The position numbers were made by a program, and so were the translations under genes. From NCBI RefSeq assembly GCF_022179465.1, contig NZ_BPQV01000009.1:62001-126000 (forward strand): DNA of 64,000 nucleotides, in the 5' to 3' direction. The notes under the pieces are model-generated. The model worked only from the letters and a program-made list of their open reading frames with translations, ran no database searches and had not been told where the DNA came from. Every line of letters starts with the position of its first letter. The stretch's first letter is position 1. Source of the stretch: Methylobacterium organophilum. Lineage in GTDB: Bacteria; Pseudomonadota; Alphaproteobacteria; Rhizobiales; Beijerinckiaceae. Shown here in pieces: positions 38,226-49,078 of this stretch.

Positions 38226-38254
38226 AAAAAGCCGGGCACGATGCCCGGCTTTTT
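38226..38254. terminator. Bidirectional terminator between infA and parC
   Basis: AAAAAGCCGGGC pairs with GCCCGGCTTTTT around the loop ACGAT. A-tract and T-tract on opposite sides let it stop both convergent genes. Its right edge touches the parC stop codon. Confidence 0.9.
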
Positions 38255-40503
38255 CATTTTCCGAACCGCTCGAATTTCGGGAAGCTGCGGGTCATCAGCA
38301 TGCCCGCCTCGCCCCGGTGCCCCATCCACTTCTCCAGAATGCCGGCATGGGCGAGCCGGCCTTCGGGGGAGCCGTCCCGCCAGGGCAGTCCCTCGGCCAG
38401 GGTGAAGACATGGGCGTGGACGAGGCTGCTGCCGCGGCAGCGCTGCAGGCGCACACCCTTGCCGCGGGACAGCTCCTGAAGCTCCGAGACCGGGAAGATC
38501 AGCAGCAGCTTGTCGGACGAGCAGACCGCGACGTGGTCGCCCTCGGCGGGGACGAGCACGGTGGCGGTCACGCCCTCGTCGACGCCGAGGATGCCCTTGC
38601 CCTTGCGGGTATTGGCCACCACCGCATCCGCGGGGGCGACGAAACCGCGTCCGTCCGAACCCGCGATCAGGAGCTTGCCCTCGGGCTGGTAGGGCAGAGC
38701 GGCGACGATCTCGGTACCGTCGTCGAGATCGACCATCAGGCGGATTGGATCGCCGAAGCCGCGGCCCCCGGGCAGCTTCGAGGCTTCCAGGGTGAAGACC
38801 TTGCCGTTCGAGGCGAGCACCAGGATCTTCGCCGTGGTCTCGCTGAAGAAAGAGACCTTGAGGGCGTCGTCGCCCTTGAAGGCGACGCCGGACAAATCGG
38901 CGACATGGCTCTTGAGAGCGCGGATCCAGCCCTTCTCCGAGACGATCACCGTGATCGGCTCGCGCTCGACCATGGCCTGGGTGAAGTCGATGCCGGCGGT
39001 GTCCGGCGGGTTCTCGAGGGTGGTGCGGCGGCGGCCGAGGGCGGTCTCCGGGCCGAAGGTCTTCTTCACCGCGCGGATCTGCTTGGTGATGTCGCTCCAT
39101 TGCAGCTTCTCGGAGCCGAGCAGCGCCTCGAGGCCCTCCTTCTCCTTGGTCAGCGCGTCGAATTCGCGCTTCAGCTCCATCTCTTCCAGCTTGCGCAAGG
39201 AGCGCAGCCGGGTGTCGAGGATGGCGTTGGCCTGAACCTCGCTCAGCGCGAAGCGGGCCATGAGGGCGGGCTTGGGCTCATCCTCCTCGCGGATGATGCG
39301 GATCACCTCGTCGAGGTCGAGATAGACGATGAGCAGGCCGCCCAGGATCTCGAGGCGCCGCTCGATCTGGCCGAGGCGGAAGCGCGAGCGCCGCTGCAGC
39401 ACCACCCGGCGGTGGTCGATCCACTCGCGCAGGGCCTCGACGAGACCGATCACCCGCGGCACGAGCCCGCCGACGAGCACGTTCATGTTGAGCGGGATGC
39501 GCGCTTCGAGCTCGGTGAGCCGGAACAACGATTCCATCAGGATGACGGGATCGACCGAGCGGGAGCGCGGCTCCAGCACGATGCGCACGTCCTCCGCGGA
39601 TTCGTCGCGCACGTCGGCCAGAAGCGGCAGCTTCTTCTCCTGGAGAAGCTCGGCCATCTTCTCGTTGAGCCGGCTCTTCGGCACGCCGTAGGGAATCTCG
39701 GTGACGACGATGTTCCAGGTGCCGCGGCCGAGATCCTCCTTGGCCCAGCGGGCGCGCACGCGGAAGGCGCCGCGGCCGGTGCGGTAGGCCTCGGAGATGG
39801 TCGCGGCGGAATCGATCAGGATACCGCCGGTGGGAAAGTCCGGCCCCTTCACGAAGGTGAGCAGCTGCTCGGAGGTCGCCTCGCGATTCTGGATCAGGTA
39901 GAGCGCCGCGTCGCAGAGCTCGGCCGCGTTGTGCGGCGGGATCGAGGTCGCCATGCCGACCGCGATGCCCTGGCTGCCATTGGCGAGCAGGTTCGGGAAG
40001 GCGGCCGGCAGCACGACCGGCTCTTCCTTCTCGCCGTTATAAGAGGGCCGGAAATCGACCGTGTCCTCGTCGATCCCGTCGAGGAGCAGGCGGGCGACCT
40101 CGGTCATCCGCGCCTCGGTGTAGCGGTAGGCCGCCGGGCCGTCGCCGTCGATGTTCCCGAAATTGCCCTGGCCGTCCACGAGCGGGTAGCGCTGGGCGAA
40201 ATCCTGGCTCAGGCGCACGAGGGCGTCGTAGATCGCCTGGTCGCCGTGGGGGTGGAAATCACCCATCACGTCGCCGACGATCTTCGCGCATTTCTTGAAG
40301 GTCGCGGTCGGATCGAGGCGCAGCAGGCGCATGCCGTAGAGGATGCGGCGATGCACCGGCTTCAGGCCGTCGCGCGCGTCGGGCAGCGCACGATGCATGA
40401 TCGTGGAGAGCGCGTAGGCGAGGTAGCGCTCCTCCAGGGCCGATTTCAGCTCGACGCTCTCGATGCCGTCGCCGGTCGGCGGCTCGAAGGCCTCCCCCAT
40501 CAC
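38254..40503 (-). CDS. parC: DNA topoisomerase IV subunit A
   Basis: A 749-residue type IIA topoisomerase subunit that decatenates replicated chromosomes with ParE. The N-terminal breakage domain has [35 protein letters not shown] (catalytic Tyr in RYTE) and later the C-terminal beta-pinwheel. The length is normal for alphaproteobacterial ParC. The ATG has GGAG 6 nt upstream. A perfect LexA box lies 30 nt upstream, so it may be induced by DNA damage. Confidence 0.96.
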
Positions 40504-40532: not shown

Positions 40533-40547
40533 GAACATAACACGAAC
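40533..40547 (-). promoter_or_regulatory. Alphaproteobacterial LexA (SOS) box upstream of parC
   Basis: On the minus strand this reads GTTC-GTGTTAT-GTTC, an exact GTTC-N7-GTTC direct repeat, the alphaproteobacterial LexA operator. It is in the parC sense orientation, 30-44 nt before the ATG and just after the recO stop codon. Confidence 0.7.
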
Positions 40548-44410: not shown

Positions 44411-47932
<3,522 letters not shown>

Positions 47933-48137: not shown

Positions 48138-48242
48138 TCACCGGATCGGCGACAGAGCTACGGCCCAGAGCACGACAGCGCTCGACAGGAGCCCGAAAGC
48201 GGTGAACTCGACCATGCCGGTGAGGATGATGCGCCTGACCAT
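48138..48242 (-). CDS. 34-residue membrane peptide with LexA-box promoter (SidA-like candidate)
   Basis: A short ORF in the lolD-dnaE gap. The ATG at 48242 has GGGAGG six bases upstream, the strongest ribosome site in the region. The product begins MVRR, has one continuous hydrophobic helix (about residues 5-30, with one Glu at 12 and Trp26) and ends in SPIR, a single-pass membrane peptide. A LexA box sits inside its promoter spacer. Caulobacter SidA is a similar sized (29 aa) SOS-induced inner-membrane peptide that blocks division by binding FtsW/FtsN (recalled knowledge). I cannot show sequence homology to SidA; the analogy rests on size, topology and control. Confidence 0.6.
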   Translation of the reverse strand: MVRRIILTGMVEFTAFGLLSSAVVLWAVALSPIR

Positions 48243-48270
48243 GTTCGCCTCCCGTTCTGTGTACGGGAGA

Positions 48271-48299
48271 AGTTTTGTTCCTGTTTTGTTCTGTGTAAA
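48271..48299 (-). promoter_or_regulatory. Promoter of the 34-aa peptide
   Basis: On the minus strand TTTACA (48299-48294) and AAAACT (48276-48271) are spaced by exactly 17 nt. The -35 matches consensus at 5 of 6 positions and the -10 at 3 of 6. Predicted transcription starts about 22 nt before the ATG. Confidence 0.45.
48277..48291. promoter_or_regulatory. LexA (SOS) box between lolD and dnaE
   Basis: GTTC-CTGTTTT-GTTC is an exact GTTC-N7-GTTC repeat on the plus strand (GAAC-N7-GAAC on the minus). It lies wholly in the spacer of the promoter for the 34-aa peptide, an ideal position for LexA repression. Confidence 0.72.
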
Positions 48300-48367: not shown

Positions 48368-49078
48368 TCACACCACCTGCTCGATCAGCCCGTCCCGGAT
48401 CGTGACCCGGCGGTCCATGCGGGCGGCGAGGTCGAGGTTGTGGGTGGCGATCAGCGCGGCGAGCCCCGAGGCCCGCACCAGCGCCATCAGGACGTTGAAG
48501 ACGTGGTCCGCCGTGTGCGGGTCGAGATTGCCGGTGGGCTCGTCCGCCAGCAGCAGGCGCGGGCCATTGGCCACGGCGCGGGCGATGGCGACGCGCTGCT
48601 GCTCGCCGCCGGACAGCTCGGCCGGACGGTGCGGAAGCCGGGCGCCGAGGCCGAGGAAGCTCAGAAGCTCGGTGGCGCGCTTCTTCGCCTCGGCCCGGGA
48701 GAGGCCGCGGATGAGCTGGGGCATCACCACGTTCTCCAGGGCGGAGAACTCCGGCAGCAGGTGATGGAACTGGTAGACGAAGCCCATCTCCTCGCGCCGG
48801 ATGCGCGTGCGCTCCACATCCGACATCGCCGCGGTCGGCCGGCCGCCGATATAGACCTCGCCCCCGTCCGGGCGCTCCAGCAGGCCGGCAAGGTGCAGCA
48901 GGGTCGACTTGCCCGCGCCCGAGGGTGCGACCAGCGCCACCAGCTCGCCGGGCCAGATCGCGAGATCGGCCCCGCGCAGGATCTCGAGGGCGCCCTCCGC
49001 CTGGGCGTAGCGCCGCTCGACGCGGGCGAAGAACAGAGCCGGCACCGGCTGGCCGCCGGCTGCCTCCTTGCTGGACAT
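48368..49078 (-). CDS. lolD: Lipoprotein-releasing system ATPase
   Basis: A 236-residue ABC ATPase that powers release of lipoproteins from the inner membrane. Walker [10 protein letters not shown], signature [14 protein letters not shown], Walker [13 protein letters not shown] and H-loop IATHN are present. MacB/FtsE-type relatives share this plan, but lolC 21 nt upstream fixes the role. It probably ends the proS-lolC-lolD transcript. Confidence 0.93.

Follow-up and report, generated by a model that had tools for sequence, protein, structure and literature searches.

The 64,000-nucleotide stretch of Methylobacterium organophilum DNA analyzed here (the window) encodes a 34-residue peptide which, with a probability of about 0.77, we take to be a divergent ortholog of Caulobacter SidA: a LexA-repressed, single-pass inner-membrane peptide that would hold the septal proteins FtsW, FtsI and FtsN inactive after DNA damage. 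Comparison across genomes establishes the gene, the constraint on its codons, its LexA box, its synteny with sidA and a stepwise homology with SidA; the features of the locus are collected in Table 1.

Table 1. Features of the candidate sidA locus and of the parC region, in window coordinates
Feature	Position	Strand	Basis
sidA-like ORF, 34 aa, single hydrophobic helix	48138..48242	-	ORF list, genus conservation, codon constraint, hydropathy
Ribosome-binding site GGGAGG, 5 bases before ATG	48248..48253	-	ggagG in consensus of 55 upstream sequences
LexA box GAACAAAACAGGAAC, reads GTTC-N7-GTTC on +	48277..48291	-	exact box in 37/37 same-genus genomes
Putative -10 hexamer AAAACT, 17 nt after TTTACA	48271..48276	-	AAAACT/AAAGAT/ATACT-type sequences there in relatives
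Putative -35 hexamer TTTACA	48294..48299	-	CTTtaCa kept in 55 distinct upstream sequences
dnaE, replicative DNA polymerase III alpha subunit	44411..47932	-	205 bp separate it from the stop codon of the peptide gene
lolD, ABC transporter ATPase, upstream neighbor	48368..49078	-	gene match
parC, DNA topoisomerase IV subunit A	38254..40503	-	TIGR01062
Exact LexA box GTTCGTGTTATGTTC, ~30 bp before parC	40533-40547	-	motif scan

A conserved short gene between lolD and dnaE

A first-pass annotation, made from the letters of this DNA, had picked out an ATG-started ORF of 34 codons between lolD and dnaE, and the ORF and both neighbors are indeed where it had placed them. The gene occupies the position that characterizes sidA in the broad sense, directly upstream of dnaE and with lolD beyond it, and its product, MVRRIILTGMVEFTAFGLLSSAVVLWAVALSPIR, has the corresponding size (about 29-36 residues) and a single hydrophobic helix, with a hydropathy maximum over 19 residues of 1.95. 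The same annotation had described a hydrophobic helix with a basic end; the helix stands, but the last residue varies across the 29 distinct same-genus peptides (H in 14, R in 13 and P in two). Invariant among these 29 are E12, W26, A29, L30 and P32, and the conserved positions line up along a single side of the helix, E12-A15-L19-A22-V23-W26-L30 (p=0.03).

Sixty-one genomes were searched in six frames, 37 from the same genus (the window's own included) and 24 others. The peptide was recovered in every one of the 37 (E from 2.4e-16 to 6e-5), and all 37 carry an exact GAAC-N7-GAAC, mostly as GAACAAAACANGAAC, 45-58 bp before codon 1. Loss of the frame or the box in relatives was what the first-pass annotation had said would speak against it; both are kept throughout the genus. 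The 24 genomes from outside the genus gave seven chance-level matches (E 0.12-2.7), none with the box, and a larger family search returned a match in all 46 same-genus genomes listed. A 24-kb query aligned with Methylobacterium bullatum over 41% of its length at 79% identity, which fits the genus. At two of the 37 loci (L004, L005) codon 1 is not a start codon, and the start would lie four codons earlier. The fetched locus includes dnaE in 32 of the 37 cases; in the other five the ORF and box are kept with dnaE outside the fetched flank, which in one (L011) ends at a contig end, and in one genome (G008) the peptide lies at 0.49 Mb and dnaE at 1.85 Mb of the same contig. The loci of the genus at which the peptide gene and box are kept without an adjoining dnaE include L084, L086, L087 and L007-L010; at L084 and L086 lolD remains beside the peptide gene and dnaE does not, and at L086 the peptide gene is followed by a converging ORF with one hydrophobic stretch.

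Constraint was assessed at 63 loci, including repeats of the same genome, which reduce to 51 distinct coding sequences; L161, where the peptide pattern was not matched, was left out. Nonsynonymous differences are fewer than synonymous ones (pN 0.224 vs pS 0.506; pN/pS=0.44, a moderate value), variability at the three codon positions is 0.19, 0.12 and 0.32, with the third the highest, and in both shifted frames pS is lower than pN. Judged on its presence with the box in all 37 genomes and on these patterns of substitution, the 34-codon ORF is a real gene under codon-level constraint. A plasmid origin was considered and rejected: the 421-bp region has no DNA match in the plasmid collection, and only two chance-level protein matches.

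A LexA-box promoter in an SOS setting

The promoter elements proposed earlier, TTTACA and AAAACT 17 nt apart with an exact box (GTTCCTGTTTTGTTC) between them, were all recovered, and the box lies wholly within the spacer, 49 bp before the peptide start. The GGGAGG ahead of the ATG is also present, although it is separated from it by five bases (CGAAC) rather than the six first reported. A strict sigma-70 scan gave no promoter match at TTTACA/AAAACT. Among 55 distinct upstream sequences a block of the form CTTtaCa-n-a-GAACAAAACANGAACAaA is conserved amid mostly unconserved flanks, as are the bases directly after the box and a GGAG. The bare GTTC-N7-GTTC occurs three times in the window against 1.21 expected, and 11 of 100 shuffles reach three, which by itself is not significant, so that more than the motif is needed to make the case. 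Its sharper form, GAACAAAACANGAAC, which was defined afterwards from the relatives, is found at a single place in the window and never in 100 shuffles. A second exact GTTC-N7-GTTC at 48243-48257 overlaps the ribosome-binding site of the peptide gene; it was rejected as a second operator, since none of the other 36 same-genus genomes has it there.

Elsewhere in the genome, exact boxes precede lexA (just upstream of it), radA, ssb and parC; those upstream of recA, which is also present, are one-mismatch boxes only, weak enough that chance could give them. Genome-wide the motif occurs 86 times vs 45 for the reversed control. The published operator consensus of Caulobacter LexA is GTTCN7GTTC (PMC12700426), and from this and the genes that the motif precedes we infer that it serves as the LexA operator here; parC may be an SOS gene in this genome. 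A further ORF of 159 residues on contig C16 of the same genome (L395) matches the LexA model in its C-terminal part, at a score under the cut-off, and also has an exact LexA box upstream.

Distribution across the family, order and class

Beyond the genus, profile matches with the same peptide layout and one or two exact boxes come from g56, another genus of the family, and from g42, g46 and g60; the boxes in g39 and g35 are degenerate. In the g56 set (L118-L137), 18 of 20 loci carry a pair of LexA boxes ahead of the peptide gene, spaced by 21 bp, and paired boxes are further noted at L169, L176, L178, L179 and L181-L184. Such pairing suggests two LexA dimers lying side by side. In the f35/g77 loci, which come from large genomes, a box in the GTTC orientation lies 18 bp past a GAAC box. 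The order search (L162-L184) yielded an exact box before a peptide of 31-36 residues at 20 of 23 loci, the exceptions being two with degenerate boxes (L162, which is a same-family genome, and L165) and one with no box (L175).

The family and order loci were found by the peptide alone, with dnaE playing no part in the search; dnaE is nonetheless present at 22 of the 23 order-search loci and at 31 of the 40 family loci, a set that includes chance matches. Where both genes are present in the genus, family and order sets, they share a strand at 84 of 85 loci. At one g56 locus (L136, G156) the peptide gene and its boxes are inverted between lolD and dnaE. The family loci with no dnaE beside the match are L145-L148, L150, L153, L154, L156 and L157, several of which were set aside as chance matches or paralogs. 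Two of these (L153 and L157, in g56 genomes G368 and G414) encode, away from dnaE, a second short peptide of the MPLL(R/K)S type with ELxCLGxFAxAxALWS, possibly a paralog; a LexA box lies some 190 bp ahead of the match.

For the order as a whole, 90 dnaE-upstream regions fetched from 110 searched genomes were scanned for a box 20-80 bp before a short hydrophobic ORF. The arrangement with an exact box was found in 44 of them, the window's own genome included, spread over 23 of 43 families, and in 0/90 in each of three controls; four further regions have a one-mismatch box, and 46 of the 90 are without the exact-box arrangement. One of the positives (L409) lies about 1.4 kb from dnaE, and a family that is positive among the order-search loci (f20) falls outside the 90 regions. 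A frequent pattern, (R/K/E/Q)(D/E)xxA(A)(L/F)xx(S/A)xxxF, is near the ARESLALVSVxxF of SidA.

A profile search of the class matched 74 of 289 genomes at E≤0.5, four of them in the window's own order, and nothing outside the order was convincing, the best match (E=5.2e-4) lying within a 224-residue frame; a search anchored on dnaE was therefore needed. This covered 69 dnaE-upstream regions, 68 from other orders and one (L215) from the window's own family, a few of which end at contig ends. An exact box 20-75 bp before a hydrophobic ORF of 22-60 residues was present on the dnaE strand in 12 of 69 (11 of 68 without L215), against none on the other strand, none with the reversed motif on either strand and 0/29 in dnaE-side sequence.

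The relationship to Caulobacter SidA

SidA is a 29-residue inner-membrane SOS inhibitor that interacts with FtsW (PMC4211646); its gene is CCNA_02004 (PMC10769358) and the dnaE of Caulobacter is CC1926 (PMC1839093). Caulobacterales genomes were reached with a PopZ probe, and 24 of them were searched for dnaE, with 23 matches. Upstream of dnaE, which by construction is present at all 23 loci, a SidA-type ORF occurs in 21, of which 13 have an exact box, 31-64 bp before the start, and eight a one-mismatch box; a lolD match lies upstream in 11 of the 23. The NCBIfam model NF033228 (div_inhib_SidA, cut-off 35 bits) recognized all four Caulobacterales ORFs compared with it, at 57.8-72.7 bits, so that in Caulobacter and Phenylobacterium a recognized SidA lies directly upstream of dnaE. 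Given the SidA ORF before dnaE and lolD upstream of it, lolD-sidA-dnaE is an arrangement shared with the window. NF033228 matched neither the window peptide (at E≤5) nor any of 11 non-Caulobacterales peptides, one of which had been entered mistyped; the window peptide lies below the model's cut-off and hence is not filed in that family. Pfam recognizes neither the non-Caulobacterales peptides nor SidA itself.

The resemblance is thus one of place, control and form: both genes directly precede dnaE with lolD upstream, both have a LexA box before the start (at 31-64 bp in Caulobacterales and 49 bp in the window), and both encode a peptide of about 30 residues with a basic N-terminus and one hydrophobic helix; stepwise profile homology joins the two. 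The peptides differ in length (29 residues in SidA, 34 in the window) and in sequence, the window peptide having E12 and W26-x-x-A-L-x-P in place of SidA's ARE(S/T)LA core and FVWMMC; besides the unmatched NCBIfam model, direct similarity between the two is undetectable. In column-permutation tests, run on subsets of rows (10 of 29 for the window genus, 6 of 12 for SidA), the window genus against SidA is at chance level (z=-0.9, with 166 of 200 permutations reaching the score). The same genus is linked to its family relatives (z=8.3) and to the order peptides (z=5.8; 0/200 in each case), and the order peptides to SidA (z=2.9, 1/200); the family relatives against SidA give z=0.4. With hhalign, the wider family against SidA gave a weak match (E=0.007, probability 5.5).

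Profile tests used 386 short hydrophobic ORFs as decoys and 5600 shuffles. With a profile of 16 family relatives, all 29 window-genus peptides outscored every decoy and every shuffle, whereas 12 of 30 order peptides and none of seven SidA sequences outscored the decoys. A profile of the 30 order peptides, containing neither Caulobacter nor the window's family, placed all seven SidA sequences above every decoy and five above every shuffle, together with 15 of the 16 family relatives, seven of 11 peptides from other orders and three of the 29 window-genus peptides above the decoys. The combined profile placed 27 of 29 window-genus peptides and seven of seven SidA sequences above every decoy, with 16 and four, respectively, above every shuffle. 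The decoy counts depend on the removal of five of an original 391 decoys after these had scored above the rest, as they carry the family motif and two of them lie upstream of dnaE; with them retained (order-profile maximum 33 bits), SidA would not exceed every decoy. Since the profile steps link the sequences and the direct tests do not, the homology is transitive, via intermediates, rather than direct. Taken with the shared gene order and operator, it makes the window peptide very probably a homolog of SidA. The original description of the peptide as SidA-like is supported, and strengthened by its place, which is that of the NCBIfam-recognized SidA, and by the stepwise profile link; the lack of direct similarity and of a match to the NF033228 model speaks against it.

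A proposed division brake and its alternatives

We infer damage induction, membrane insertion, partnership with FtsW and division arrest as follows. In the undamaged cell LexA, bound to its box amid the -35 and -10 elements, would block RNA polymerase; upon DNA damage RecA would become active, LexA would cleave itself and the peptide would be made. It would then insert into the inner membrane as a single-pass helix, whose face E12-A15-L19-A22-W26-L30 may pack against the septal peptidoglycan synthase complex FtsW/FtsI/FtsN and keep it inactive, so that division would wait for the completion of repair. In Caulobacter, a change of FtsW F145 to L suppresses both SidA and DidA (PMC4211646). Each of six FtsW sequences examined has F at this position (numbered as in C. 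vibrioides OR37). A246, another suppressor site, is A in four of the six and S in the window's own genome and g56, a point against the reading; together these residues are compatible with, and not decisive for, a SidA-like binding of FtsW. Only one FtsW/RodA-type protein was found in each of the window's own genome (contig C3, L390) and the g56, f20 and g77 genomes, whereas a Caulobacter and a Phenylobacterium had two apiece.

Among other known inhibitors, SulA of E. coli is also SOS-induced and blocks division, and is not known to be a small membrane peptide. Unlike the mode of action proposed here, it disrupts FtsZ polymerization (PMC4211646). DidA of Caulobacter is, similarly, a small damage-induced single-pass membrane inhibitor of division, but it has 71 residues, is driven by DriD independently of the SOS response and binds FtsN (PMC4211646), whereas a LexA box precedes the gene in the window. 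YneA of Bacillus and SosA of Staphylococcus are SOS-induced division inhibitors, the former acting on FtsW (PMC13396833; PMC6851548); they belong to another phylum, and the likeness, set by their description, is one of analogy.

The main competing explanation is an SOS-induced peptide that acts on the membrane itself, causing depolarization or dormancy in the manner of TisB or DinQ, the latter an SOS-regulated, toxic, single-transmembrane inner-membrane peptide (PMC3567139), rather than on the divisome. The size, the single helix and the LexA box would all fit such a peptide; however, an acidic residue and a Trp, both invariant and on the same side of the helix, point to a protein partner, and the synteny and profile link lead to SidA, which acts on FtsW (PMC4211646), leaving this explanation unlikely. 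The LexA promoter might alternatively serve dnaE, as an SOS promoter or leader for the polymerase, with the peptide a minor leader ORF. Adjacency to dnaE is widespread, and a consensus scan found no minus-strand terminator-like site between the peptide gene and dnaE, as this would have it. Yet the peptide is under amino-acid constraint, the ORF and box persist at the five same-genus loci with no dnaE in the flank (and in G008 far from it), and SidA in Caulobacter works, by genetics (PMC4211646), all of which make a mere leader improbable.

Two more explanations would deny the peptide any role. A damage-induced non-coding RNA with an incidental ORF is conceivable inasmuch as the promoter would yield a transcript either way, but the most variable third codon positions, an excess of pS over pN that is absent from shifted frames, and homologous peptides in other genera and families render it highly improbable. 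That ORF and box arose by chance might be argued from the three bare motifs in the window; it is refuted by conservation, as the pair is kept in 37 of 37 genomes and the arrangement is absent from every order-scan control, and we accordingly regard the ORF and box as real, with the probability of coincidence negligible. The preferred reading remains that of a SidA ortholog acting as an SOS-induced brake on division.

Implications

More broadly, and only tentatively, since we consider it rather doubtful, SidA could be, rather than a peculiarity of Caulobacter, an SOS brake on division ancestral to much of Alphaproteobacteria, kept with dnaE as a pair of genes in one SOS unit, where a single LexA promoter would halt septum synthesis and, by read-through, resupply the polymerase, with fast drift having hidden SidA from family models. 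SidA itself is already known; what is new, as far as the literature was searched, is the presence before dnaE, in many alphaproteobacterial families, of sidA-type genes that the SidA model does not recognize. None of the titles and abstract beginnings searched, a set without the SidA paper of 2011, dealt with peptides of this type from beyond Caulobacterales. For alphaproteobacteria other than Caulobacter, the locus described here offers a tiny, concrete candidate for the means of pausing division after DNA damage, in Methylobacterium and in 23 of the 43 sampled families of its order, along with a rule by which it may be found in other genomes: a LexA box and a short hydrophobic ORF just upstream of dnaE. 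Because dozens of diverged natural partners can be aligned, the contact between SidA and FtsW would thereby become a comparative problem.
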